In this document: positions 8,113 to 60,999 of the stretch, piece by piece
Numbering within the stretch: position 1 is the first letter of the stretch
Layout: every line of letters begins with the position of its first letter
Source of the DNA: Lysobacterales bacterium 66-474
Lineage (GTDB): Bacteria; Pseudomonadota; Gammaproteobacteria; Xanthomonadales; Rhodanobacteraceae
NCBI GenBank assembly: GCA_001899805.1
Contig: MKWP01000015.1
Span: forward strand, 868,001-932,000
Direction: 5' to 3'
Length of the DNA: 64,000 nucleotides
The notes under the pieces: model-generated
What the model was told of the DNA's origin: nothing
Databases searched by the model: none
The model's input: only the letters and a program-made list of their open reading frames with translations
Made by a program: the position numbers and the translations under genes

Positions 8113-8958
8113 ATGACCGTAGCAATCACTGGGATCACCGGCCACCTCGGCCGACTCGTCCTCGCCAAACTCAAGTCTGCAGGGCTTTCACCGGACGTCA
8201 TTGGATTGGCACACTCGCCTGCCAAGGCAGCTGATCTCGGATTGCCGATCCGCGAGACCGACTACGAGCAACCCGCCACCCTTGCCCGCGCGCTGAAAGG
8301 CATCGATACGTTGTTGCTGATTTCGGCAAGCGAGCTCGGCAAGCGCGCGCGCCAGCACCGCAACATCATCAATGCTGCTTCGCAAGCCAATGTGAAGCGC
8401 ATCATCTATACCAGCCTGCTGCACGCCGACACGTCCACGCTGAATCTTGCGGGCGAGCACCTTGCGACCGAGCGGATGCTGAAGGATTCCGGTATCCGGC
8501 ACACCATCCTGCGCAATGGCTGGTATACCGAAAACTACACCGGCTCGATTGCGGGCGCGCTTGCTGGCGGCGCCTTCATCGGCAGCGCCGGTGCGGGCAG
8601 GATTTCGTCCGCCGCACGCGCCGACTACGCGGAGGCCGCCGTGAAAGTGCTGACCGGACACGACCACGATGGCCGAACCTACGAGCTTGCTGGCGATTCG
8701 GCTTGGACGCTTGCGGATTTCGCTGCCGAAATTTCACGCCAGACGGGCAAGTCGATCGCGTACCAAAACCTGCCCGAAGCGGAGTACGCCGCCGCATTGC
8801 AAGGTTTTGGCGTACCGACCGACTTCGCCCGGGCCATTGCAAGCTGGGACGTTTCCGCCTCGCAAGGGGTCCTCTTCGACGACAGTCACGAGCTGTCAAA
8901 GTTGATCGGACGAGCCACGACTCCGATGTCCATAACGGTGGCCGAAGCGCTGGCTTGA
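8113..8958 (+). CDS. QorB/NmrA-like NAD(P)H:quinone oxidoreductase
   Basis: The 281-residue protein is an atypical short-chain dehydrogenase: Rossmann motif GITGHLG at 6-12, a Thr-Ser pair near residue 100 (IIYTSLLHAD) where the family lacks the classical YxxxK, and the RNGWYTENY segment typical of QorB/YtfG-type proteins. These enzymes reduce quinones with NADPH in the cytoplasm. The length matches the family (about 280). It is a single gene with its own promoter and is bracketed by a direct repeat at both ends. The regulator often found beside it (HxlR type) is not present. Confidence 0.88.
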   Translation: MTVAITGITGHLGRLVLAKLKSAGLSPDVIGLAHSPAKAADLGLPIRETDYEQPATLARALKGIDTLLLISASELGKRARQHRNIINAASQANVKRIIYTSLLHADTSTLNLAGEHLATERMLKDSGIRHTILRNGWYTENYTGSIAGALAGGAFIGSAGAGRISSAARADYAEAAVKVLTGHDHDGRTYELAGDSAWTLADFAAEISRQTGKSIAYQNLPEAEYAAALQGFGVPTDFARAIASWDVSASQGVLFDDSHELSKLIGRATTPMSITVAEALA

Positions 8959-8969
8959 GCCGAGACTGA

Positions 8970-9008
8970 CCGCCTGAGTGGCTATAAAAAAATGATCTTA
9001 GGTCAGTG
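8970..9008 (+). repeat. Direct repeat copy 2 flanking the qorB-like gene
   Basis: This is the second copy of the repeat at 7971-8010: CCGCCTGAGTGGCTA is identical over 15 bases, followed by an A-run and GGTCAG. It lies just after the qorB-like stop codon. Confidence 0.6.
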
Positions 9009-9184
9009 CCATCATCAAGTTCGGGTTGGATCGGATGATCGATCTGTCCGGTGGACGCTGCCAAGACCCACATCACAGATGTCAGGGAAGCGGATTGGGG
9101 AGCAGCCATCAATCTGCAACGCGCCTTCTGTTTCTGAAGTTGATTTCCACGATGGCTCGACTCAACTGTCGCTTCCGATGTCAC

Positions 9185-9532
9185 CTAAGCCCAGATGTAT
9201 TCTTCGGCAATCGCACCGTCTCGCCATTTGGCGACAGTTACCATGCGTCCTCCGCCCTCAAATTCACCGACGACGCAGGTCCACTCACCCGATCCGAAAG
9301 CGATCGGGTGAGAGGTTATTCGTGGAGGCGTGCCTCCCGCCGATTTCACGTACGCCTTCATGGCATCGATGTGCTGCTGAATCCCGTGTGTCGGAGGCTG
9401 CCCCTTCCAGTCGACCAAAACATCTTTGGTGTGGTGATGGGCGAACACTCCGTGCCAGTCCGCATCGTTCCATCCGATGAAGTCGAGATCATCCATGGCT
9501 TTCAGGTTGTGCTTGACTACGTCGCCTTGCAT
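9185..9532 (-). CDS. NTF2-like/SnoaL-like protein
   Basis: The 115-residue product has the short helix-then-sheet pattern of the NTF2/SnoaL superfamily, with motifs of the cone fold such as DWHGVFAHHHTKDV and the C-terminal VTVAKWRDGAIAEEY, where the strand residues line a hydrophobic pocket. Proteins of this fold bind small molecules or act as isomerases or cyclases. The ATG at 9532 has GGGAGA upstream; the longer frame to 9682 is not supported. It stands alone, facing away from the dioxygenase gene. The substrate cannot be inferred. Confidence 0.72.
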   Translation of the reverse strand: MQGDVVKHNLKAMDDLDFIGWNDADWHGVFAHHHTKDVLVDWKGQPPTHGIQQHIDAMKAYVKSAGGTPPRITSHPIAFGSGEWTCVVGEFEGGGRMVTVAKWRDGAIAEEYIWA

Positions 9533-29079: not shown

Positions 29080-29925
29080 ATGACCCTGGACGCGCAGATC
29101 GATCCACCGCCAAGCAAATTCCATTTCATTTCCGGATTGCCGCGCTCGGGAAGCACCCTCTTGTCAGCAATCCTGAAGCAGAACCCGCGCTTTCATGCGG
29201 GCATGACCAGCCCGCTGGCGGACATGCTGAGCGTCATGGTTGCCGAGATGAGCAGCAAGAACGATTTCTCGGTGGTGATTTCGGACAAGCAACGCGCGGC
29301 AGTCCTCGACGCGGTCGTACGCGCGTTCTACAGAGGTCTTCGCGGCGTTGAGATTGCGTTTGATACGAGCCGTGTGTGGTGTGGCCAGATGCCCTTGCTC
29401 GCGAACCTGTTTCCCGAATCGAAGCTGATCGTTTGCGTGCGCGAGATACCGTGGGTACTGGACAGCATTGAGCGACTCGTGCGCGAGCAACCACTCAACG
29501 TCAACAAGATCTTTCGCTTCAACCCACATCTGAACGTCTTCTCGCGCGCTGAGGCACTGACAGATCCGAAAGGGATGGTTGGCTTTTCGTTCCAGACCAC
29601 CAAGGATGCGTTCTACAGCGATCTCGCTCCTGGCCGTATCCTGTTGCTGACCTACGAAAGCCTGACCGCGAATCCCAAGGCGTCCATCGAGGCGATCTAC
29701 AAATTCATCGATGAACCTTGGTTCGAACACGACTTTGAACATGTCCAGTACAACGCAGACGAATTCGATTCAAGGCTCGGCCTTCCGGGATTGCACACCG
29801 TCCACAAGAAGGTCGCCAAACCAGACCGTGCGTCGATATTGCCTCCCGAGCTTTTCAACCGGTATGTCAACGAGTCATTCTGGCTGAATCCGCGGAACAA
29901 CACACGCAAAGTCCCCGTCATTTGA
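29080..29925 (+). CDS. Sulfotransferase-family protein
   Basis: The 281-residue protein has the PAPS 5'-phosphosulfate loop GLPRSGSTLL at 19-28 and the 3'-phosphate region around VCVREIPWVLDSIERL (about 120-140). Such enzymes add sulfate to sugars, peptides or small molecules in the cytoplasm. It is the last gene of the sugar operon, 68 bases behind the beta-propeller hydrolase. A sulfotransferase at the end of a catabolic operon is unusual, but the TonB-receptor/sulfotransferase neighbourhood recurs in this window at 49-54 kb. Two hairpins follow the stop codon. Confidence 0.85.
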   Translation: MTLDAQIDPPPSKFHFISGLPRSGSTLLSAILKQNPRFHAGMTSPLADMLSVMVAEMSSKNDFSVVISDKQRAAVLDAVVRAFYRGLRGVEIAFDTSRVWCGQMPLLANLFPESKLIVCVREIPWVLDSIERLVREQPLNVNKIFRFNPHLNVFSRAEALTDPKGMVGFSFQTTKDAFYSDLAPGRILLLTYESLTANPKASIEAIYKFIDEPWFEHDFEHVQYNADEFDSRLGLPGLHTVHKKVAKPDRASILPPELFNRYVNESFWLNPRNNTRKVPVI

Positions 29926-29940
29926 TCAGGAATCGTGTGC

Positions 29941-29995
29941 CACTTCGCGCATCAACGTCTTGACCTACCTTGGCCATGCGATGACCCGCGAAGTG
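29941..29995. repeat. Inverted repeat with long loop after the sulfotransferase gene
   Basis: CACTTCGCG (29941-29949) and CGCGAAGTG (29987-29995) are perfect 9-base arms with 37 bases between. It could be part of the operon end or a boundary of the recombinase element downstream. Confidence 0.5.
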
Positions 29996-30015
29996 GTCAC
30001 TGTGCTCTTGCGCAT

Positions 30016-30040
30016 GTCCGTTCTCACTCAGTGAACGGAC
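30016..30040. terminator. Perfect hairpin, terminator or recombinase site
   Basis: GTCCGTTC (30016-30023) and GAACGGAC (30033-30040) form a perfect 8-base stem with a 9-base centre, followed by TTTACCTACT. It can be read as the operon terminator. The symmetric 8-9-8 layout is also what a tyrosine-recombinase core site looks like, and the giant recombinase gene ends 160 bases away. Confidence 0.5.
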
Positions 30041-30200
30041 TTTACCTACTATCAGCTGGTACGACTGGCGGGGGCAGGTCACAGCGGCGGAGACGTGACG
30101 ACAACCAGCAAATCCACGGCCTCCACCGGTTCTCTGAACTGACAGTAGCGTCCGTCGGTAGCGGAGATGCGATCGCGCGCCTTACGGAATACGCCTGCCT

Positions 30201-33200
30201 CTACCCAAGGAATTTCGAATGCTCATACGCGGCAACGTACGACAGCACCCAACGCGTCGCTCGGGTATCGCGGTTGATGATCCGGCCCGTCTGGTCGCGA
30301 CACTTGATGCGCATGCGAGGGATCGGTTTCGTCGTCAGACGAAGGCGCTCGTTGGGAACGATGGCGCCACTGATTCGGATGTCAATTTGCTTTGGATCGG
30401 CGAGGCTTCTGGCCCGATCCACCTCGCTCGCGTCGTTGAGACGGATCCGGCCGCGCTCGTTTTCACTGGCATGTACCCACTTCTCAAGAAACCACGAAAA
30501 ATCCTCACGGCGAGTCTCCCGCAGCCTCTCTAGCCACATGCAAAGCACAGCTGCAGCATCCGTAGCCGAACCGGCCGCCAAAGGCCGCGGCAGCCATACC
30601 CCGGCGCGCACCTCCTGCAAGAAATGCCGTCGCATGTCCGAGTGCCGTTTCCCCTTCTTGCCGGTTCTCACTGACGCCAGCCATCGGAGACCTTCCGCAT
30701 ATGCATCAATCTCATCCTGCGCCAAGCGGCTCTGCCCGTCTCGCAAAGATTGGTCCACTTGCTCCAACCTGGCGAGGCTAATGACGTCTGACGCAGCATT
30801 TTCTGTATCCGCCTCCGATCGCGGAGTTTCGTCGTAATCGATGCCCTTTCCGTGAAACCGTTGTTCAATCCGATCCCGCATCGCACGATTGATGGCCCGG
30901 CGCTGCGATTCAGCATTTCCCTCGTCCTTCAGTGAAGCACGAGCTTGCATGGCCCAACGCTGCACGGTGGACTTGCCAGAGATACGGTTCTCAAAACTGC
31001 GTGAAATATCCAAGGTGTCCGTCTTGCGAAGGGCGCCGTAAAGGGCGATGCCCAAGACGTGCACATAGTGCCGAATCGTCGTCGTCGGATGCGAGTGGCC
31101 GACCATTGCTGAGACCGCACGCATTCCCTGCCCCGCATCACCCTCTGCGCCCAACAACGCATGCATGCGACGCTTCGAGCCGATCATCAAGTCCTTGATC
31201 CACGGTAGATCCTCCTCAAGTCGATCCAGTCCAGCAGGTTTTCTAAGCAGTGTCAGAACGAGGCGGCTTGCCAAGGTGTGCCGCAGGTGGTGCGAACCCA
31301 TGCTGATATCGCCTGTGACCTCCTTCACCAGCTGGTTCACCTTGTCAAAGAAGTTGTCGGGGTTTGCGGGTGTACCGGCAGCCGGATCGATCAAGAATGT
31401 GTAGCGCCGGCGCTGCGCTTCACGCATCCATGCCTGCGTATATCCCTCGGCGAAATCCAACGGCAGAACGCGATCCGACCATCCTGTCTTGAGCCTTCGG
31501 CCCTCGTACACCTGCACCCGGCAGAGGTCCTGCTGAAGATCCAGCGTCCTCAGATAGGCGCTTTCTGATCGTCGGGTGCCATAGGTCGCCATCAACTCAA
31601 AGTTGCGTTGGGCACTTGCGCGTAGTTCTGCATTGCCGATGTTTGAACGGCTCGAAATAAGCGCCGCGTGGATCTTGCCAAGCTCGTCGGCCCGCAAGAT
31701 CTTTGCTGAAACGGCACGCTCGGGATGCGGCCCAAGTTGCACAACCTCGAACCCGGCATGGTCCGCCGTCTTGTCGCCAAGAAATCGATCGAACTGGAAC
31801 CATGCACCGTGCTGCAGTCGCTCCGGAAACTCGTGCCGGCTAGCCTCTTGTAGTTCCAGCAAGACGTCACCGTCGATCGTCCCTGCACCACCATCCCACG
31901 TTGCATACCCCAGAACCGCAAACGCAACGACTTCCACTCGCCCGGCAATGTAACGCCTTTCGTGGGCGGAAAGCCGCGGGTAATCGCCTTCAGATCCAGC
32001 CCGCTCCACCATCCAAATCGCAAATTGACGCAACAGCGCCTCGACGGGCGGCGTTGTCGCCTTGGGCATCAGAACCTCCCGCCAGTACGACTTGTAGTTG
32101 CTCCGATGAGTGCGCAGCATTTGCGCGATAGGAACCTTGACGTCCAACAGCTTGAGCGGAACGTCTTCGGCACTGGGCTCGACCTGCTTGCTGTTTGGCA
32201 ATTCCATTGCAGCACACGCCCGGGACTTGCGCGTTGGCTCCAACTTGGCAAGGCGGCGTAACTCGTCGTCTCCAAGATCCCACGTGTGGAGTTCGCCGCG
32301 CGCATACGCGGCGAGTATCGGTGCGCTGTCGAGCATGATCTTCTGCGCCGCCGCTGCGGTCATTGCCGAAAGCGTGATGCGATGGCTCCCCGCGCCCAGG
32401 AACCGCAAGTACGCTTGGACGGCCCTTCCCACTCGCGCGCGTCTTTGTGCAGGTGTGACGCGATGAAACAACGGCTCCAGGAGCTCTTGCCGAACCCATT
32501 CGCGATCGGCTGCCAGACAGGACGACGTAAACGCATCCAGAAACACCGTACGCCGGACCACTTCACGCGCACCGTCAGTCTTTACTTGCACAACCATGTA
32601 CCGATTGGGACCTTGTGCCAAGACGGGAGCATCCTCGCGCACCGATCGCAGCCAGCACTCGATGAGTCTCCATCGTGAGAGCCCCAGACGCCAAATGGCC
32701 ACCATCGCGAGACGGCCGAGTTCAATCTCCCATGCACCCTTGTCCTTCACCCTGACCGCAGCAGTGTCCGCTTGCTGTGCGTTGAGCGGCAATGGCACAT
32801 CAGCAGGGTCTCTCTGGACTTGCTCCTCACCCTTCGGCCGCAAGCCGCCTTCTACCGCCTCTTTGCATGCCGGCGCCTGATCGGCCGTCCGGCTCAGCCG
32901 CAACGAGTCTCCACAAGATGTAGCCGAAGGATCGACAGCGACCGGCGTGCGCGTCGGCAGACATGTCAAATCCGCCAAGAACGGCGGGAGCACGCGTTGC
33001 TGCATGTAGGCCAGCGTTTGCAACGCATCCGCCGACAACACCACCCTGTTCGTGAATAACGGTCGGGGCTTGGCCGCGAATATTGGTATCTGCTTCTTGT
33101 CGCGGACCAACGCGCACGCAGCCTCGGCAACCTCACGTTGCCATTCAACGGACTCGCGCTGCTGGCTCGAGACAGTGCGACGGACCAAATCCAATGCATC

Positions 33201-35924
33201 CACAGGGAGAAGCTTTTGCTTGTCATCCAACAGTGCGCCTGCGCGCGCCGCATCGACCTCGCGCAGCAGGTCCACGATGTCCAGCTTCCTGCTTGACGGT
33301 GGGGGCGTGCCCAAACTGGACCGTGCTAACTCCGCCTCAGCCTTGGCCTTTGCCCTGGTCTTTGTCTCCGATGTTGCAGGCCATAACGGTGAAAGGCGGT
33401 CTCGCTTCCAAAAGTGCACCGGCTTGATGACCTTGAACCCAAGACGTTTCTCCATCTTGGCCTGCAGCTCCAGCCAGCTCGCGCGAAAGTCGGCGGCATC
33501 GAAAGTGCTGGTTGCGTCCCACGCGTGCCGACCCCGTACCCAATGACCCATCTCCGCGTCGCGGTAACGCCCTGGCAGCTGTGAAGAAACCGAACGCAAC
33601 ACTTTTCGTCCCCAGTTTGCGGGCAACGAGGTAAGGTGTTCGTGTTGTTCTTGATATTTGGGCCGGTAAGGCACCACTCCCTTGACGAGGTCGATGTACT
33701 GCAGACGGAGCTCGTTTCCCCGCTCGGTACGAACAATGGGATCGAGCTTCGGCGCAGTGATGCTCAGCGCGCTTGCAAACGTCACATACGCATCAATCTG
33801 ATCGCGCAAGGGGCCGCTGAGAGGAACCAACCGATCGGTCGATCCGTCGATCCGGTGCTTGTCCATCACCAACGCCCAACCGTCGTCGATCAACACGTTT
33901 GGCACCGGGACCAGGGTCTTGCGTCCTGCGACCCCGAGACCCAGCCAATACGACAGGTACAACGTCATCAGGTTGAACAGCCGCGGCCAGTCATTCTTTT
34001 GCTGGGCTGTCCAAGCGCGACGTTTGATGCTCCTGAAATATTTGGCCAGCTTTGAAACATCGAACGCATGCTGCGCCCCAACGTAGCGATTCCGCCCTGC
34101 CCCTTGCACGCCACTTGGCAGCACCCCCACCAACGATTCTGCCGCTGCGCGCCATTGCGACTCCAGCCGTCGTGCGTGGTAGGACGCGTAGTGGATGATG
34201 TTGCGAGCGTTGACAGCGCCATCGTCGGTAATTACCTGCTGCGCTCCCAGGTCGCCCCGCGTGCGCTCGGCTAGCGCACGGGTAAAGGCATGGCGCACAC
34301 CTCGCCCCGTGACTCGGAATTCCCGTGCACGTCCACTTTTTCCACCGAGCTCCTTCAGGGCCCGGCGCGCTCGCGGTACAACACGCTGACGCGCCATCCT
34401 GTTTCCCGGCCCGATCGCATCGACAAGCGCCCACCAGCCCCTCGGCAGCGGGAGGGACAGTGCATTGGCTTTCGAGTGACACAACGGTGGGGTTTCATGC
34501 GGTGGATGGCGCAGGTCTGGCTCGCCCGGATACAAATACAAGCGATGCGTCCGAAGTCCAATCATCACCGGTTGCTTTTTGCTCACTTCCGGCGTTTCGC
34601 GCGCGATCTCGAAATTCCCAACCTGCTCTAGCGATCGGCCCGTCAGCAAAGTCAGCCCGATCGCGAGCCGCGCACATCGATCCAGCTGCGTCTCGCTGAT
34701 TGAGGTTGGAGCACCAACCAGATCAACCACAGCGACAATTGCCGACCGGGACAACGTCCAATTGCTCCAGCGCAGCATCGCGTTGCCGTACTCGACACCG
34801 TTTTGTTGTCCCTCTGATGCGTAGTAGCCACGGATCAGTTCCTTGCCGTCGGCAAGGAATATCGAAAGCTGGGGCTCCTGCTGGGGCAGGTCCTCGGGAT
34901 CGTCTTCGAATGTGGATTCGCCGCTCCCAGATCGACCGCCACGCGCCTTCGGTTGGCGCGGATAGAATTCCACCACCGTGCCGGCGTGTACTTCATCCGC
35001 GTCCACCCGCTGCAAAAGCTCGGTCAGCCGCTCACCGTGGATGATCTCCGGACGGTACCTATCCCGGCCGTAGAATTCGCGCCGCCAGCGTTTGGTGCGA
35101 ACGCTCCGGCGAGTCCGGTCGACCCACAGCAGAGATAGAAGCCTCCCAATCTCGGTGGGCATCACGCTACGAATTTTCTTGACCGCGGCAACCGCCTCCT
35201 GCTCACGATTTGCGGACGGCATCCATGCCGCCGCCTGTTGCAGAAGTCGCTCACGATCCCGCCTGGCCATGCGGCGATACCCGAGGTCAAAAAGAACCGC
35301 CAGTTGCTCACTGTCTTCGGGCGAAAAGCGCATCGTGAGCGACGCAAGCTCACGCAACTTCTGCCTCGCACTGTCACCGGGAGCAGCCAACCTGCGCAGT
35401 CCGAGCCAAGCTTCGTAGAGTCGATTCCCCGGAGGGCGCTTGCTCAGGCGGCTTGTTTTCGACATCAAGTACGTTTCGTACGCTCCCCGGCTCATGGTTC
35501 GGGCATGGAATCGCTGCGCTTGCCAAATCAGCCAGGCTGAGACTTGCTCGAAATCCGCCGAACTCGCAGCCCGTACGCGTTGACACAGCAGCAATTCCGC
35601 GATCACGCTGTCGCCACCCAAGCCAAAGAGCGGTGTCCAAGGGTTTTTGATGTCTGCAATTTTCCGCCCCATCAGATGATCATCCGGGACGCTCAGTCCC
35701 GCGATCGCATCCAGCACGGCGAGGCATCGGGCGTAGTTTTGGACCTCTGGGAGCAAATTGAGCGCGGGGTACTTTTGACGCCAGTCTTGGAACTGGCCAC
35801 ACATCACGATGATTCCTTTGAGGCTGCGCGGAGCCCGGATTGCATACAGCGCGTCGATCAGCTCGCTGAGATCAATGCCCCTGCCCAAGTGCCCGGCGAG
35901 TTTCAGGAGGCCTTCATGCATCAC
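30201..35924 (-). CDS. Giant tyrosine-recombinase protein (1907 aa) with three recombinase-like domains
   Basis: The C-terminal domain (about 1400-1640) has a full tyrosine-recombinase site: R1451 in YGTRRSE, H1545 and R1548 in HHLRH, H1610 in MVGHSHP and the nucleophile Y1620 in IRHYVH. Two earlier segments follow the same plan with altered residues: about 420-600 (R430 in TGRSLEQ, R544 in GVRHAF, Y579/Y582 after HYASYHA) and about 655-810 (R668 in AGRK, R777 in VLRS, H794 in MGHW, F808 where Tyr is expected). About 1060-1200 may be a fourth, very weak one. The last 260 residues are unassigned. The small upstream gene overlaps its start. Codon usage looks less GC-biased than that of its neighbours, suggesting transfer. 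DNA cutting and joining by the C-terminal domain is expected; the other roles are inference. Confidence 0.8.
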   Translation of the reverse strand: MMHEGLLKLAGHLGRGIDLSELIDALYAIRAPRSLKGIIVMCGQFQDWRQKYPALNLLPEVQNYARCLAVLDAIAGLSVPDDHLMGRKIADIKNPWTPLFGLGGDSVIAELLLCQRVRAASSADFEQVSAWLIWQAQRFHARTMSRGAYETYLMSKTSRLSKRPPGNRLYEAWLGLRRLAAPGDSARQKLRELASLTMRFSPEDSEQLAVLFDLGYRRMARRDRERLLQQAAAWMPSANREQEAVAAVKKIRSVMPTEIGRLLSLLWVDRTRRSVRTKRWRREFYGRDRYRPEIIHGERLTELLQRVDADEVHAGTVVEFYPRQPKARGGRSGSGESTFEDDPEDLPQQEPQLSIFLADGKELIRGYYASEGQQNGVEYGNAMLRWSNWTLSRSAIVAVVDLVGAPTSISETQLDRCARLAIGLTLLTGRSLEQVGNFEIARETPEVSKKQPVMIGLRTHRLYLYPGEPDLRHPPHETPPLCHSKANALSLPLPRGWWALVDAIGPGNRMARQRVVPRARRALKELGGKSGRAREFRVTGRGVRHAFTRALAERTRGDLGAQQVITDDGAVNARNIIHYASYHARRLESQWRAAAESLVGVLPSGVQGAGRNRYVGAQHAFDVSKLAKYFRSIKRRAWTAQQKNDWPRLFNLMTLYLSYWLGLGVAGRKTLVPVPNVLIDDGWALVMDKHRIDGSTDRLVPLSGPLRDQIDAYVTFASALSITAPKLDPIVRTERGNELRLQYIDLVKGVVPYRPKYQEQHEHLTSLPANWGRKVLRSVSSQLPGRYRDAEMGHWVRGRHAWDATSTFDAADFRASWLELQAKMEKRLGFKVIKPVHFWKRDRLSPLWPATSETKTRAKAKAEAELARSSLGTPPPSSRKLDIVDLLREVDAARAGALLDDKQKLLPVDALDLVRRTVSSQQRESVEWQREVAEAACALVRDKKQIPIFAAKPRPLFTNRVVLSADALQTLAYMQQRVLPPFLADLTCLPTRTPVAVDPSATSCGDSLRLSRTADQAPACKEAVEGGLRPKGEEQVQRDPADVPLPLNAQQADTAAVRVKDKGAWEIELGRLAMVAIWRLGLSRWRLIECWLRSVREDAPVLAQGPNRYMVVQVKTDGAREVVRRTVFLDAFTSSCLAADREWVRQELLEPLFHRVTPAQRRARVGRAVQAYLRFLGAGSHRITLSAMTAAAAQKIMLDSAPILAAYARGELHTWDLGDDELRRLAKLEPTRKSRACAAMELPNSKQVEPSAEDVPLKLLDVKVPIAQMLRTHRSNYKSYWREVLMPKATTPPVEALLRQFAIWMVERAGSEGDYPRLSAHERRYIAGRVEVVAFAVLGYATWDGGAGTIDGDVLLELQEASRHEFPERLQHGAWFQFDRFLGDKTADHAGFEVVQLGPHPERAVSAKILRADELGKIHAALISSRSNIGNAELRASAQRNFELMATYGTRRSESAYLRTLDLQQDLCRVQVYEGRRLKTGWSDRVLPLDFAEGYTQAWMREAQRRRYTFLIDPAAGTPANPDNFFDKVNQLVKEVTGDISMGSHHLRHTLASRLVLTLLRKPAGLDRLEEDLPWIKDLMIGSKRRMHALLGAEGDAGQGMRAVSAMVGHSHPTTTIRHYVHVLGIALYGALRKTDTLDISRSFENRISGKSTVQRWAMQARASLKDEGNAESQRRAINRAMRDRIEQRFHGKGIDYDETPRSEADTENAASDVISLARLEQVDQSLRDGQSRLAQDEIDAYAEGLRWLASVRTGKKGKRHSDMRRHFLQEVRAGVWLPRPLAAGSATDAAAVLCMWLERLRETRREDFSWFLEKWVHASENERGRIRLNDASEVDRARSLADPKQIDIRISGAIVPNERLRLTTKPIPRMRIKCRDQTGRIINRDTRATRWVLSYVAAYEHSKFLG

Positions 35925-36657
35925 GCCAGCCCTTGAGTCGAAAGAAATGCGCTCGGCTGTATCCAGTCAGGAATTGCGCTTCCCAGTCGTCTATGCTGAT
36001 CTCGGCAATGAATCGACGGTGCAGAACGTACAGCGGCGCCAGAACCTCGAGGGTGTCCGCGCAGACGTCGAAAAATGAACGCTTCCTGGGGATTGTCGCG
36101 CGAAGCCAGCGGACCCTCACCGCTGCGTCAGGCCTACGCTGCCGGGCAATGACCGCAGGTACATGGCCCGCGACGACCCAGTTCTCTCCGTTCTTGGCGT
36201 TAGGTATCACGACTGGCGTTGTCCACCCGAGCAGGCGGTCCACGACCACATCCGGAAGATCGTCCAGGAATTTCTGGGTACGCCGAAGCGGACGCACATT
36301 CTTGGCAGCGCTCCCTGTCCAAACAAGGGTGCTCGCCGGAACAGACAGCCACCCACGCTCGAGCTTCTGCTTATTTGATCGCGCACTGGTCGACCCGGAG
36401 ACCACGCCGGAGTCGCTGACCACGCGCTCCACAATCTGGTATGTGAGCGCTGCCAGTCGCAAGGCATCCTTCAACTTCGGCGACCACAGTTTCGGGTCCG
36501 GATTCTGTATCAGCTTCCGAAGGCAGGCCACGACGGTGGGGCGGCCGCTCGCAAGGATCGGCGGCGCAATTTCAAAGAGAAGTCCCTGATCAAGGCGGGC
36601 AGCCGCCACGGGGAGCCCTACGGTCGAAGTCGATGAGACTAATGATACCTCATCCAA
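35914..36657 (-). CDS. Unknown protein (up to 247 aa) coupled to the giant recombinase
   Basis: The frame ends in TGA at 35914-35916, inside the start of the recombinase gene, so the two are translationally coupled. The product is basic in its middle and C-terminal half (RTQKFLDDLPDVVVDRLLGW, ARQRRPDAAVRVRWLRA, KRSFFD) with no membrane segment. I recognise no family. The listed start is a TTG at 36657; internal GTG codons are possible and the ribosome site is weak. Context suggests a partner of the recombinase, perhaps DNA-binding or a directionality factor, but this is not shown by sequence. Confidence 0.6.
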   Translation of the reverse strand: MDEVSLVSSTSTVGLPVAAARLDQGLLFEIAPPILASGRPTVVACLRKLIQNPDPKLWSPKLKDALRLAALTYQIVERVVSDSGVVSGSTSARSNKQKLERGWLSVPASTLVWTGSAAKNVRPLRRTQKFLDDLPDVVVDRLLGWTTPVVIPNAKNGENWVVAGHVPAVIARQRRPDAAVRVRWLRATIPRKRSFFDVCADTLEVLAPLYVLHRRFIAEISIDDWEAQFLTGYSRAHFFRLKGWRDA

Positions 36658-37002
36658 GCGACCCAGATCGGCGAGAATTGGGCGCGCCGGCTCCTATGGG
36701 TTGCGCATGAAATCCATAGAGGGCGCCATTTTGTACCGACTTATGCCTATACAAATCGATCTGCAATAACTACCCAGTTTGGGTTATGAGCGAGCTGCCA
36801 GACTGCTCCACCCCGCATCAGGTGAGCCGCCTATTGTACGTGTCGGCACCTCACTACGCAACAAACGCCCTGAAAGCTTGCTGCGCAAGGACCTCCGCGG
36901 CTCCGTGTGATGGTCACGGGCATCGCACGCGACGTCGGGAATGTGTCGCCGCGTGCGCACCTGGCACTCGAATCCGTTGCTGCCCACCGCGTTGAAGATG
37001 AA
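36658..37002. other. Non-coding right flank of the recombinase gene pair
   Basis: No gene is supported in these 345 bases. The stretch is AT-richer near 36725-36785 and holds small inverted repeats: CTATGG/CCATAG (36694-36719), the 8-base palindrome GGCGCGCC (36681-36688) and ACCCA-GTT-TGGGT (36772-36784). It probably contains the promoter of the two minus-strand recombinase-element genes and one end of the element. The opposite end could not be matched to it. Confidence 0.45.
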
Positions 37003-38241
37003 TCAGTGCAATTCGGGCGATGCCGACGCGGGACACTCCGTACTGGTCGATCCTTCATCGGCCCTGCCGTAAAAGTCGCGGCGAATCGTTCCCCCGGGAC
37101 TTGTCCACAGCAAGTTCTCAGCCGCGCAGGTTTCGCCGTAGTCGAACAACTGCTGCATGTGCTTCCGGCTGAAATCGAGAAAACTTCCGGCGGGATAGTC
37201 GACCGGCATGTCGGTGAGATGAAAAACCATGTGGTAGCGGCGGGACAGCGCCATGACCAGCCCCAGCGCATCGCGCGTCTTGTAGGTAAGCTGGGCGGAA
37301 AAACTTTCCTCGAGTATCTTCACGGTATTGATCGGTGTTTGCCTGGGTCGCATGCCAAGCTGGCCGTTGACGATCACGTAGACGCTTGCGCCTTCCGCCT
37401 CCGCTTCGTTTCCCTGCACCGTCTGCGCGATCAACGGCGCGATGAACAGGGGCGTCGTGACGCTGCCATCGACGTGCATTTCGTCGTAGGCATGTTTGCC
37501 CTCCTGCACCGGGATCAGCACCGGCGGGAACACGCCCGGCACGCTGGCCGACGCGACCAGCACCTTGCGGAACAGGTCGTGCGCCGCCGTACCGCCCTGC
37601 GCCGCGATGGCGCCCATGTTCCACAACATCGTTTCCTGATCGTCGAGATCGGTGGTGGCGACGACCAGCATGCGTCCTGTCGCCGCCTCCCGGCCCACGG
37701 CATCGATCATCGCGTCGGTGATGTTGCGGTCGACCAGTTCGACCAGCGAATCATTGCCGCCTGCGCTGCGTGGAAACAGGAACCTGCCGATCGTTGACCA
37801 CCTTCCCGTCGAGTGCTGCAGGCGTTCGATATCGCCGCCCTCGAAGACCTTTTCCATCTGCGGGTCCCATGCCGGACCAAGGAACGCGAACGGCGCCAGC
37901 AGTGCGCCGGCGCTGACGCCGGTGACAAGATCAAACTGCGGACGTGCCCGGGCACGTGCCAATCCCGCCAATGCGCCCGCGCCGAACGCTGCACCGGCGC
38001 CGCCGCCGGACAGGACCAGCACGTTGATCTTGCGACTTCCCGCGGCCCGATGCAGGCCCTCCAGCCATTGCGGCAACTCTTGTACGAAGCGCTGCCTGTC
38101 GACGGTGAGCAAGCGAATGTCCGCAGGGAACCCGGCGGGCACCGCGGCATTGATCAGGGTGGGTGGCGGTGGGCGCCGCGGTGTCAGCACACAACCGCCC
38201 AGCGCGGCGATGCACGGCAGAAGCACCCACCAGCGTTTCAT
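37003..38241 (-). CDS. Patatin-like phospholipase lipoprotein
   Basis: The 412-residue protein has a lipoprotein signal (lipobox LGGC at about 14-17), then a patatin domain: oxyanion loop SGGGAGAAFGAG near 80-92, nucleophile Ser in GVSAG, and the dyad Asp in VDGSVTTP. Patatins hydrolyse acyl esters of phospholipids. The lipid anchor suggests action at the membrane face of the periplasm. It overlaps the upstream TDT gene by ATGA, so it is the second gene of that operon. The frame to 38301 lacks features; the ATG at 38241 starts the signal. Confidence 0.88.
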   Translation of the reverse strand: MKRWWVLLPCIAALGGCVLTPRRPPPPTLINAAVPAGFPADIRLLTVDRQRFVQELPQWLEGLHRAAGSRKINVLVLSGGGAGAAFGAGALAGLARARARPQFDLVTGVSAGALLAPFAFLGPAWDPQMEKVFEGGDIERLQHSTGRWSTIGRFLFPRSAGGNDSLVELVDRNITDAMIDAVGREAATGRMLVVATTDLDDQETMLWNMGAIAAQGGTAAHDLFRKVLVASASVPGVFPPVLIPVQEGKHAYDEMHVDGSVTTPLFIAPLIAQTVQGNEAEAEGASVYVIVNGQLGMRPRQTPINTVKILEESFSAQLTYKTRDALGLVMALSRRYHMVFHLTDMPVDYPAGSFLDFSRKHMQQLFDYGETCAAENLLWTSPGGTIRRDFYGRADEGSTSTECPASASPELH

Positions 38242-58037: not shown

Positions 58038-59480
58038 CTACCCCCCGAACGCGGCCCGGCACCAGGCCAGCAGCGGGCCGGAAAAGAAAATCATCGCGAC
58101 CAGACCCAGCGCATTGATCGACAGCAACCCACGCAACGCGAGATCCGGCTTGGCCTGCAAAGGCTCGACGCCTTCGGCAGGTTGCTCGAAATACATCACC
58201 CAGATCACGCGCAGGTAGTAGAACAGCCCGATGATCGAGCAGATGATCGCGACGATCGCGAGCCACAGCATGCCGCCATCGATCGCGGCCTTCAGCACCA
58301 GCACCTTGGCGATGAAGCCCCACAGCGGCGGGATGCCGGCCAGCGAGAACATCGCGATCGCCATCATGCCCGCGAACCACGGCGAGCGACGATTGAGCCC
58401 CTTCAGGTCGTCGATCATCTCGCACTCGAAGCCCTTGCGCGCCAGCGCCAGGATCACGCCGAAGGCCACGGTTTCCATCAGCGCGAAGCAGACCGCGTAG
58501 AACAACGCCGCCGAATAGCCTTCCGGGGTCGGATTGGCCAGCCCGAGGAACACGAAGCCCATGTGCGAGATCGTGGAATATGCCAGCATGCGCTTCAGGT
58601 TCTTCTGCGCGATCGCGACCACGTTGCCGACCACCAGCGACAGCGCCGCCATGATCGCCAGCATGATGCGCCAGTCGTCCGCGAACGGACCCATGCCCAC
58701 TTCCAGCAGCCGGTACGCCAGCCCCACCGCGGCGAGCTTCGGCACCGCGCTGATGTACATCGCGATCGGCGTGGGCGCACCTTCGTAGACGTCGGGCAGC
58801 CACATGTGGAAAGGCACCGCGCCGAATTCGAAGCCGATGCCGACCACCAGGAACACCAGTCCGAACTGCAGCAGGTGCGGGTGCGTGGTGGTGCCGGCAG
58901 CGGCGAAGATGCCGTGCAGGTCGAGGGTGCCGGTGGCGCCGTAGATCAGCGACATCCCGAACAGGATCAGGCCGGACGCGAGCGAACCCAGCACGAAGAA
59001 CTTGATCGCGGCCTCCGACGACAGCTTCGATTCGCGGTTCAACGCGACCAGCGCGTAGGCCGGCAGCGCGAACAGCTCCAGCCCGAGGTACACGGTGATC
59101 AGGTTGCCCGCGGATACCAGCAGCATCACGCCCAACACCGAAAACATCGACAACGAATAGAACTCGCCCATGAACAATTGGCGGTCGCGCAGCCATGGCC
59201 GCGCCATCACGTACATCAGGATGGTCGCGATCAGCACCGTGACCTTGAGTATCTCGGCCATGCGATCGCGCACGAACATGCCGCCGAACGCGGTCGCCGT
59301 CGTGTCCGGCTGGCCGTGGACCACCAGGAAGATGCCCACCAGCATCACGATGATCGCGACCCAGTGCGTGGCATCGCGCTGGTCGTCGTTGATGAAGACG
59401 TCGAACAACAACACGAAGCAGGCCGCCGCGGTCAGGTACAGCTCGGGGACCATCACCAGCAGGTCGTTGAGGGTAATCAT
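58038..59480 (-). CDS. nuoN: NADH-quinone oxidoreductase subunit N
   Basis: The 480-residue protein is a multi-helix antiporter-like subunit of complex I with the proton-translocation wording (GSLASGLILFGMSLIYGATGT, EFGAVPFHMWLPDVYEGAPTP, YSTISHMGF). It forms part of the membrane arm together with NuoM and NuoL. It begins with ATG at 59480 and lies seven bases behind nuoM. It is the last gene of the nuo operon in the direction of transcription. Confidence 0.96.
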   Translation of the reverse strand: MITLNDLLVMVPELYLTAAACFVLLFDVFINDDQRDATHWVAIIVMLVGIFLVVHGQPDTTATAFGGMFVRDRMAEILKVTVLIATILMYVMARPWLRDRQLFMGEFYSLSMFSVLGVMLLVSAGNLITVYLGLELFALPAYALVALNRESKLSSEAAIKFFVLGSLASGLILFGMSLIYGATGTLDLHGIFAAAGTTTHPHLLQFGLVFLVVGIGFEFGAVPFHMWLPDVYEGAPTPIAMYISAVPKLAAVGLAYRLLEVGMGPFADDWRIMLAIMAALSLVVGNVVAIAQKNLKRMLAYSTISHMGFVFLGLANPTPEGYSAALFYAVCFALMETVAFGVILALARKGFECEMIDDLKGLNRRSPWFAGMMAIAMFSLAGIPPLWGFIAKVLVLKAAIDGGMLWLAIVAIICSIIGLFYYLRVIWVMYFEQPAEGVEPLQAKPDLALRGLLSINALGLVAMIFFSGPLLAWCRAAFGG

Positions 59481-59487
59481 GAGGTTT

Positions 59488-60999
59488 TCAAACCTTGCTG
59501 GCCATCAAATGGGTCACGAGTTGCGCGACCGAGGAATCCATCAGGTGCATCAACGGCCACGGGTACACGCCCATCGCCAGCACGGCCACCGCGAACGCGC
59601 CCAGCACCAGGCCTTCGCGGGTGTTGATCTCGGGCATCGCCGCGGCTTCCTTGCTGGGCGCGGTGCCCCACACGATGCGCTTGATCAGCCACAACGTATA
59701 ACCGGCGCCGATGATCAGCGAATACGCCGCGAACAGCGCGATCCACGGATTGGCGGTGAAGCTGGACAGGATCACCATGAACTCGCCGACGAAGCCCGAG
59801 GTGAACGGCAGGCCGCAATTCGCCATCGCGAACAGCACCCAGAACGCCGCGAACCACGGCATCACCTTGGCGAGTCCGCCGTAGGCCGCGATTTCGCGCG
59901 TGTGCAAGCGGTCGTACATCACGCCGATGCAGGTGAACAGCGCGCCCGACACGAACCCGTGCGAGATCATCTGCACCACCGCACCCTGCACGCCCAGCGC
60001 CGCGGTCTGCACGTCGTGCTGCTGGCGCGCCAGCATGTACACGATGAACAGGCCCAGCGTCACGAAGCCCATGTGCGCGACCGACGAATACGCGACCAGC
60101 TTCTTCATGTCCGGCTGCACCAGCGCGACGTAGCCGATGTAGATGATCGCGATCAGGCTGAGCACGATCACCAGCCACGCGAATGACTCGGAGGCATCCG
60201 GCACGATCGGCAGCGAGAAGCGGATGAAGCCGTAGGTACCGACCTTCAGCATGATCGCGGCCAGGATCACCGAACCGCCGGTCGGCGCCTCGACGTGCGC
60301 ATCCGGCAGCCAGGTGTGCACCGGCACCATCGGGGTCTTGATCGCGAACGCGATCAGGAACGAGAAGAACAGCCACGACTGTTCCTTCATCGTCAACGGC
60401 AATGCCCACAGCGCCTGCAGGTCGAAGGTGCCGGCGCGGTGGTAGAGGTACAACAGGCCGATCAGGAAGAAGATCGAACCGAAGAACGTGTAGATGAAGA
60501 ACTTCAGCGTCGCGTACACGCGGCGCGGGCCGCCCCAGATGCCGATCAGGAAGAACATCGGGATCAGGATGGCCTCGAAGAACAGGTAGAACAGCAACGC
60601 GTCCATCACGCAGAACACGCCGATCAGCAATCCTTCCAGCACCAGCATCGCCGCCATGTACTGGTGGACCTTGTCCTTGATCACCTGCCACGCGCCGCCG
60701 ATCACCAGGATCGAGGTGAACGTGGTCAGCACGATCAACGCGACCGCGATGCCGTCCACGCCGAGGTGGTAGCTGGAATTGATGCCGGGAATCCAGCGAT
60801 GCAACTCCTGCAACTGGAAGCCGCCCGGGCCGGCGTGGTATTCCGACAGCATCACCAGGCTCAGCGCGAAGGTGACGACGGTGAGCGCCAGCGTCAGCCA
60901 GCGCGCCACGCGCGGGCGGGCGTTGCCGGCCAGCAACACGAGGATCGCGCCAAGGCACGGCAGCCAGATCAGGATGCTGAGGATGGGCCAGTCAGACAT
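59488..60999 (-). CDS. nuoM: NADH-quinone oxidoreductase subunit M
   Basis: The 503-residue subunit shows the NuoM wording VHTWLPDAHVEAPTGGSVILA, AYSSVAHMGFV and a late PFTSGFVGEF segment, and about 14 hydrophobic helices. It pumps protons in the membrane arm of complex I. The ATG at 60999 begins the conserved part; the frame to 61029 is not supported. A 135-base gap with an imperfect palindrome separates it from nuoL. Confidence 0.96.
   Translation of the reverse strand: MSDWPILSILIWLPCLGAILVLLAGNARPRVARWLTLALTVVTFALSLVMLSEYHAGPGGFQLQELHRWIPGINSSYHLGVDGIAVALIVLTTFTSILVIGGAWQVIKDKVHQYMAAMLVLEGLLIGVFCVMDALLFYLFFEAILIPMFFLIGIWGGPRRVYATLKFFIYTFFGSIFFLIGLLYLYHRAGTFDLQALWALPLTMKEQSWLFFSFLIAFAIKTPMVPVHTWLPDAHVEAPTGGSVILAAIMLKVGTYGFIRFSLPIVPDASESFAWLVIVLSLIAIIYIGYVALVQPDMKKLVAYSSVAHMGFVTLGLFIVYMLARQQHDVQTAALGVQGAVVQMISHGFVSGALFTCIGVMYDRLHTREIAAYGGLAKVMPWFAAFWVLFAMANCGLPFTSGFVGEFMVILSSFTANPWIALFAAYSLIIGAGYTLWLIKRIVWGTAPSKEAAAMPEINTREGLVLGAFAVAVLAMGVYPWPLMHLMDSSVAQLVTHLMASKV

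Follow-up and report, generated by a model that had tools for sequence, protein, structure and literature searches.

A giant tyrosine recombinase and a conventional one at opposite edges of a probable tRNA-fMet island

The locus described here raises a simple question: what does a tyrosine recombinase (TR) of 1907 residues move, and with which partners? The gene lies on the minus strand (30201–35924) of a 64,000-nucleotide stretch of the genome of Lysobacterales bacterium 66-474, hereafter the window, which covers positions 868001–932000 of contig C15 in the 3.73-Mb source genome. A first-pass annotation of the window had proposed that the protein holds three TR domains in one chain and is a fused counterpart of multi-gene recombinase systems. 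Our preferred reading, to which we give a probability of roughly 0.55, is that this giant, apparently three-lobed protein and a conventional TR encoded at the opposite edge of the same genomic island would be the two halves of one joint recombination machine. The reading builds on observations of domain anatomy (one lobe being graded as probable), of gene positions at the edges, of a displaced and an intact tRNA, and of the convergent co-occurrence of the two recombinases across several genera. Genomes and loci used for comparison carry G and L numbers, respectively.

The giant gene is confirmed as one uninterrupted open reading frame (ORF) with a GTG start, and full-length relatives are found in Rhodanobacteraceae, Nevskiaceae, another gammaproteobacterial metagenome-assembled genome (MAG) and Acinetobacter. 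Because these relatives keep both the frame and the catalytic residues, a chance ORF or an annotation artefact is ruled out. A tblastn search of plasmids with the giant matched 43 of 72,556 records, 42 of them from Acinetobacter; query coverage was at least 80% in 35 of the 43, and identity was 27–30% among the 40 matches listed. A scan of genome contigs with the single protein as query found no relatives, and a second scan with an alignment of giants yielded 14 loci (L031–L044) from Hydrocarboniphaga effusa, Solimonas sp., a gammaproteobacterial MAG, a Rhodanobacteraceae MAG (the G009 element), nine Acinetobacter and a fragment labelled Wohlfahrtiimonas. Genome G157 holds a further chromosomal relative, together with a second, N-terminally truncated giant (L028, 5500–10653). 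Direct protein searches matched 7 of 233 genomes of the same family; at the level of the order 14 of 398 genomes were listed, eight of which match the catalytic stretch alone, in ORFs of 297–551 amino acids (aa). These eight, and the 154-aa tail that G273 has on a short contig, were left out of the giant count. No relative was found in the viral contigs searched, phage records gave a single weak match (E 0.9) confined to the C-terminal domain, and PADLOC and PDB sequence searches with the giant returned nothing useful.

The C-terminal lobe (residues 1395–1640; 31005–31742, minus strand) is, judged from its sequence, a tyrosine recombinase with the complete catalytic set RKHR(H/W)Y. PF00589 is the only Pfam family matched by the giant (E 8.1e-12, in two stretches, the best at 1410–1556 and the second not located), NCBIfam gives weak XerC/XerD-type matches, and comparison with a profile of conventional TRs by hhalign returns a probability of 98.9% (E 3e-17). 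The catalytic residues R1451, K1479, H1545, R1548, H1610 and Y1620 occur without exception in the 14 aligned fused proteins, and in all 20 rows once six split relatives are included; the five of them that the first-pass annotation had named (all but K1479) were thus correctly identified. A divergent giant found later and lying outside these 20 rows (G069) has Tyr at the box-II His position.

The two upstream lobes, N1 (residues 395–605; 34110–34742, minus strand) and N2 (residues 612–835; 33420–34091, minus strand), were compared by hhalign with a profile of 32 conventional TR rows, with column shuffles as control. In the latest alignment, which includes three more divergent giants and omits five near-copies, N2 scored 57.9 (E 1.9e-7, probability 93.7%) against 18.6 for the best of 25 shuffles, and N1 scored 31.2 (E 0.0012, probability 19%) against 17.0, with 152 columns aligned in the expected order. 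Control slices scored below their best shuffles (residues 10–260, 13.2 versus 16.7; residues 200–390, 11.5 versus 12.5). N2 had already stood out in the first alignment of 14 fused and five split rows (33.0 versus 16.9 for the best of 20 shuffles) and in a second to which two divergent giants had been added (45.6 versus 17.4). The corresponding N1 scores were not significant: 17.4, below the best shuffle of 19.4, in the first, and 15.6 versus 14.8 in the second. We therefore consider N2 a well-supported degenerate TR domain and N1 a probable one, since the N1 score rose clear of the shuffles only once divergent giants had joined the alignment. No significant score was obtained when N1 and N2 were aligned with the C-terminal domain of the giant or with one another. 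AlphaFold models of the giant were poor (pLDDT, the model confidence score, 61.7 and 59.6, from input alignments of 11–12 rows), and a Foldseek search with the N-half model (61.7) returned no match at E up to 0.001.

In N2, R668, K689, R773 and H794 are kept in all 19 rows (14 fused, five split), and the catalytic set is incomplete: the box-II His is Asn 770 in 14 of 14 fused rows, and at position 808 Phe stands in 13 of the 14 fused rows and Leu in the other, while four of the five split rows have Tyr and one has Leu. In N1, Y579 is present in 19 of 19 rows and R430 in 17 of 19, and the pair H578-Y579 is kept. The three-domain plan of the first-pass annotation thus stands in outline, with one intact lobe, one clearly degenerate lobe and a third that is probable. 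Among the residues it had proposed, R668 and H794 hold, the box-II Arg of N2 is either R773 or its R777 (both invariant in the fused proteins), F808 is Phe in 13 of 14, and Y579 and R430 hold, but R544 is not conserved. Because Pfam reports PF00589 alone, the protein comes close to the outcome, a single PF00589 match, that the first-pass annotation had itself named as counting against its plan, but the more sensitive profile–profile comparison supports N2.

That the giant is a fused, single-chain counterpart of a multi-gene system is supported by its split relatives and by the restriction of the full active site to the last domain. In three genomes (G108, G130 and G165) the same protein is encoded by two overlapping genes, an N-half of 877–915 aa and a C-half of 855–1004 aa (the shortest, 855 aa, is cut by a contig end), and a small gene of 172–191 aa precedes the N-half gene, which is followed by the C-half gene. 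More distant split pairs occur in G258 and G481, the G481 match containing an internal stop codon. In a C-half tree of 22 rows, the 16 fused and six split rows fall on either side of one branch with support 91/92. This unrooted tree, which was built before the G079, G219 and G097 giants were known and in which L172 and L174 form long branches, cannot say how many fusion events took place.

The sequence outside the 5′ end of the giant gene marks what appears to be an edge. A small partner gene (35914–36657, minus strand; 247 aa from a TTG whose status as the true start is uncertain) overlaps the giant by 11 bp. A gene of 219–259 aa overlaps the giant in the other fused loci that include the 5′ side, and blastp detects it in 12 of the 14 loci L031–L044; the small partner has no Pfam match. 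Beyond it, at 36769–36839 and read on the minus strand, stand in order a promoter-like GTACAAT (36833–36839), the first 27 nt of tRNA-fMet (36791–36817), the heptamer CTCATAA (36784–36790) and a 15-bp arm ending in GTAGT (36769–36783). The 27 nt match the intact tRNA-fMet of the genome, with 5 nt absent before CTCATAA; the same letters GTACAAT precede the intact tRNA; and CTCATAA is identical to the anticodon loop of tRNA-fMet. The arm, which reads AAAAATAAAGTTAGT in Acinetobacter, holds the same position in other fMet elements. The combination of tRNA piece, CTCATAA and an arm ending in GTAGT is found at all seven fMet-type left junctions examined (the window, L028, L029, L031, L032, L033 and L104), the tRNA piece ahead of CTCATAA measuring 14 to 31 nt, and in six of these seven elements, all but L104, the small gene and the giant lie just inward. 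The junctions of L032 and L033 are about 120 bp past a tRNA-Leu, downstream of a gene read by eye as triosephosphate isomerase-like at its start. Attachment (att) sites had not been revealed by a repeat search of window positions 29500–37400; tRNA-fMet homology, unlike that search, exposed them. By eye, TGACCGTCGG or a one-letter variant is also seen near six of the seven left ends, the window being the exception.

The intact tRNA-fMet of the source genome lies outside the window at C15:818184–818260 and is followed by rimP, nusA and infB. Six right ends were compared (those of the source genome, G157, G009, H. effusa, Solimonas and the MAG of L033). At each, a Cro/C1-type helix-turn-helix (HTH) gene reads toward the intact tRNA-fMet from 196–288 bp away, the one of the source genome matching Pfam HTH_26, and at the five whose contig reaches far enough a conventional TR of about 400–420 aa is encoded inward of the HTH gene (the G009 contig ends first). 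The right-end TR of the source genome has the full canonical integrase architecture, with Arm-DNA-bind_2 and PF00589. By eye, CCGACGGTCA is seen at the stop or last codons of the HTH gene at four of the six right ends. Between HTH gene and tRNA, the right ends of L100, L123, L125 and L132 carry tandem repeats (TGGGCT.., TGGGCC.., TGGTCTC..) with 10–11 bp spacing, which are possibly protein-binding sites. Beside the right-end TR, L100 encodes an HD-domain protein (8323–9393) with YhaM-like and TraI_2/MobH-like similarity, and in H. effusa, Solimonas and G108 the TR is likewise followed by proteins of similar appearance.

A displaced tRNA fragment at one edge, an intact tRNA at the other and an uninterrupted site in a relative together describe a tRNA-integrated island: in G004, a genome of the same genus without the element, nuoN, tRNA-fMet and rimP follow one another uninterrupted, with a nuoN–tRNA gap of about 80 bp. 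We infer that the giant and its small partner form the left edge of an 86.6-kb island in tRNA-fMet. This length is the span to the intact tRNA-fMet, covered throughout by L100, L124, L101 and the window, internal boundaries having been sought by a DNA search, which gave two tRNA-fMet places in the genome. Comparable islands measure about 35 kb in G157, about 62 kb in H. effusa and about 46 kb in the MAG of L033. The part of the island inside the window (1–30200) encodes a GntR/UTRA regulator, a TonB receptor and GH5-type, ROK, SIS, major facilitator superfamily (MFS) and sulfotransferase proteins. The first-pass annotation had seen no cargo and had proposed a minimal self-mobile element akin to recombinase-in-trio (RIT) or Gamma-Mobile-Trio (GMT) systems; the lack of cargo is contradicted by these genes. 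The three TR-like domains in one chain speak for such a minimal element, as do the split relatives, which form a gene trio. With tRNA-fMet copies 86.6 kb apart, cargo between them, a second TR with an HTH gene at the far edge and, in H. effusa, a defence-type gene behind the giant, we regard it as highly improbable.

How regularly the two edges go together was examined from the side of the right-end TR. At E ≤ 1e-60 this TR occurs in 19 of 230 genomes of the same family, at 21 places; 14 of 20 such loci (L138–L157) have an HTH gene in the flank, and four of the 20 have the tRNA-fMet motif. As a test of prediction, the island side of seven TRs was inspected in genomes in which no giant had been found directly (G068, G069, G079, G219, G097, G088 and G083; G082, an eighth TR locus, was kept outside the count, its contig ending 119 bp on). 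Giants were found opposite five of the seven: 1798 aa in G068, 1925 in G069, 1788 in G079, 1742 in G219 and 1725 in G097. Default-filter hmmsearch missed the G219 and G097 giants, which were first picked as long convergent ORFs. With filters off, the N-half profile recovered them at E 2.4e-18 and 3.5e-20 (four targets), and an unrelated 1894-aa ORF of G079 gave E 0.44. Taken together with the source genome, G157, G108 and G130, where the giant was already known, a fused or split giant is present in nine of 11 TR loci of this family, all either inspected across 18 kb or more or already known to have both modules, the remaining loci of L138–L157 being outside this count. Giant and TR are convergent in all nine, and also in H. 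effusa and the MAG of L033, separated by as little as about 6 kb (G108) and as much as about 78 kb (source genome). In G083, one of the two misses, no giant was found before the contig ends at 18 kb, again with filters off. Since the long ORF of G083 (1718 aa) is cargo shared with G079 at 97% identity, its counterpart there being the 1894-aa ORF named above, and the G079 giant lies 45 kb from its TR, the G083 giant may be off the contig.

In our preferred reading both ends would work together. The giant and its small overlapping partner would make up the half of the recombination machinery that sits at the left end of the island, and the conventional TR with the Cro-like HTH protein beside the intact tRNA-fMet would form the right-end half. 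The intact lobe of the giant and the right-end TR could then be the two catalytic partners, and N1 and N2, by analogy with the Tfp protein of SE elements (discussed below), might serve an architectural role, binding or clamping DNA. The island would excise as a circle and reinsert in tRNA-fMet, and the promoter and 5′ half carried at its right end would restore the tRNA-fMet gene after insertion. The HTH protein may provide directionality, or may repress or otherwise control expression. A more specific version, in which a synapse that usually comprises four like subunits would be built from one giant (three lobes, one of them active) and one small TR, with movement of the island dependent on both edges, is speculative and in our view quite unlikely.

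Several observations weigh against a joint machine. G088 has the TR and no giant within 134 kb, even with HMMER filters off. In G159 (L104) the left terminus is followed, within 3.1 kb inward, by an ATPase-like ORF and no giant, and a search of this stretch with filters off gave neither an N-half nor a C-half match. Att repeats were sought outside tRNA-fMet in G108, G130, G069 and G068, and none was found. Methyltransferase, Vsr and MzaA-type genes stand directly outside the TR and HTH gene of G108, so that the G108 modules need not be edges; its giant and TR are convergent neighbours and not proven edges. G014, which has no giant, carries 7.4 kb between nuoN and tRNA-fMet, including a gene for the candidate defence protein PDC-S06. 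At the locus of the source genome itself, no tRNA remnant was found at the outer end of the 21-kb block (36840–58046) that separates nuoN from the left junction; with nuoN adjoining tRNA-fMet in G004, this block means that the source locus has also been rearranged. Finally, no right-end-type TR was found in the flanks of Acinetobacter giants (0 of 13 loci, in 12 records, several of them short contigs).

Some of these points would be accommodated if the right-end TR and HTH protein were the sole integrase, the giant having another role, such as DNA processing or stabilisation, or being an older element at the left edge. The TR has the full architecture of a canonical integrase; it occurs without a giant in G088; a left terminus occurs without an adjoining giant in L104; and in L147, L148 and L149, from three genomes of one genus, the TR and HTH gene adjoin a tRNA-Met without the 5′ motif of tRNA-fMet, so that methionine tRNAs in general may be targets of this type of TR. 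The pairing of TR and giant weakens this explanation: giants accompany the TR in nine of 11 loci, one miss (G083) ending at a contig edge, the small gene and giant sit just inside the left junction in six of seven fMet elements, and in Acinetobacter the giant travels with a terminus of its own where no such TR was found. We accordingly hold a sole-integrase arrangement, the main rival to our preferred reading, to be somewhat unlikely. The left terminus of L104 (1–3140) stands directly after nuoN and perhaps belongs to a derivative that has lost its giant.

The Acinetobacter elements invite the converse explanation, in which the giant and its small partner alone would be a transposase-like engine and the right-end TR would be secondary, serving resolution or target choice. 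In L013, L014, L035, L040, L041 and L042 one left terminus stands beside differing, mostly insertion sequence (IS)-like sequences; this suggests either that target specificity is low or that IS elements are preferred. Solo copies of this terminus at L015 6746 and L039 6952, 2–3 kb upstream of complete elements, look as if they came from partial or older insertions. The conserved terminus in differing surroundings and the absence of such a TR from the 13 loci favour an autonomous giant. However, the right ends of the Acinetobacter elements were sought and not found, an apparent common right border, with a motif resembling a pdif site and with IS copies, was rejected as an element end, and the association of TR and giant is strong in chromosomal islands. 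We consider an autonomous giant distinctly improbable, and continue to prefer a machine whose halves lie at the two edges of the island.

Several features of the flanks and cargo accompany this picture. The gene nuoN (58047–59477, minus strand) has tRNA-fMet as its downstream neighbour in G004 and G031. The 21-kb block between it and the left junction encodes a patatin, SLAC1, TonB receptors and a sulfotransferase, among others; its GC content of 0.664 compares with 0.60–0.63 on the island side, 0.64 in the nuo stretch and 0.66 in the rimP–infB stretch. Within the nuo genes, ARAGORN calls a 97-bp tRNA-Gln (59785–59881) that is probably spurious. G157 contains two giants, fragments of others and two copies of the HTH gene, and a stretch of right-end sequence that includes the HTH gene recurs upstream of its left junction, as expected of tandem insertion. 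Between its tandem giants (L028, 10650–12090) a toxin–antitoxin-like pair was read by eye. The defence-type gene behind the H. effusa giant (L031, 16094–18445) encodes PDC-S06, and PDC-S01 occurs downstream of one Acinetobacter giant. The PDC-S06 gene of G014 (L121, 14897–17116) lies between nuoN and tRNA-fMet, with no giant there.

Multi-recombinase elements with separate genes offer the closest comparisons. RIT elements consist of three separate adjacent recombinase genes. The giant resembles them in having three recombinase units in a row and differs in that these form one chain with two of the lobes degenerate (one of them probably so); the locus holds one chain plus a small gene, its split relatives a small gene plus two large genes, and the RIT identity considered in the first-pass annotation is therefore not sustained by the gene plan. 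RIT is named in the report on SE elements (PMC10214605), which carry an intA-tfp-intB-srap operon at one end, two catalytic TRs, a TR-fold protein Tfp without catalytic residues, imperfect inverted-repeat termini with a 6-bp spacer, and strand-biased circularisation. Tfp is there suggested to be architectural and, like GinC, lacks catalytic residues (PMC10214605). The likeness to the giant lies in the combination of catalytic TRs with a TR-type unit that lacks catalytic residues, and the difference in the arrangement, as separate genes of a one-ended operon in SE and as fused lobes in the giant; the SE operon plan was not found at the giant locus. In three 50-kb stretches of pAQU1, neither the N-half nor the C-half profile matched, and no SE was recognised in those stretches.

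GInt elements encode three TR-type proteins and a small protein (ginABCD) that are needed together and form site-specific cargo islands, and GinC is a TR-type protein without the full catalytic set (Bardaji et al. 2017, PMC5385486). The present islands resemble GInt in combining several TR-type units, not all of them with a full catalytic set, with a small protein and with cargo. In GInt, however, the four genes are gathered in a single operon at one end, whereas here the lobes are fused, the TR and HTH gene lie at the opposite end and the target is tRNA-fMet; a one-ended ginABCD operon of three integrases and GinD was not found, and the two systems are set apart by gene plan. GMT islands (Mahata et al. 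2024) reportedly also join recombinase-related proteins with defence cargo, and a GMT identity of the present locus is not supported; NCBIfam matches at E up to 1 included no GMT-named family, although whether that library includes such models is unverified. tRNA-targeting islands with tyrosine integrases (Islander, PMC4383910) split a tRNA gene, restore it and leave a displaced fragment, as seen here, but in our case it is the 5′ part of the tRNA that was displaced, and a giant three-lobed recombinase is encoded at the far end. Among the titles and opening lines of abstracts listed by literature searches, with few subscription papers covered, no fused three-lobed recombinase or two-ended TR island is described.

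The giant may thus represent an undescribed way of building an island-moving machine. The rule that a right-end TR points to a giant on its island side exposed five giants that direct searches had missed, and can be used to locate both modules of large islands, among them islands that carry candidate phage-defence genes. An open question of multi-recombinase islands such as GInt, SE, RIT and GMT is why a single reaction should require several recombinase-like proteins, including some that lack an active site. A single chain with one intact and two apparently degenerate lobes, available together with split relatives, would make the stoichiometry and the role of inactive lobes directly testable.

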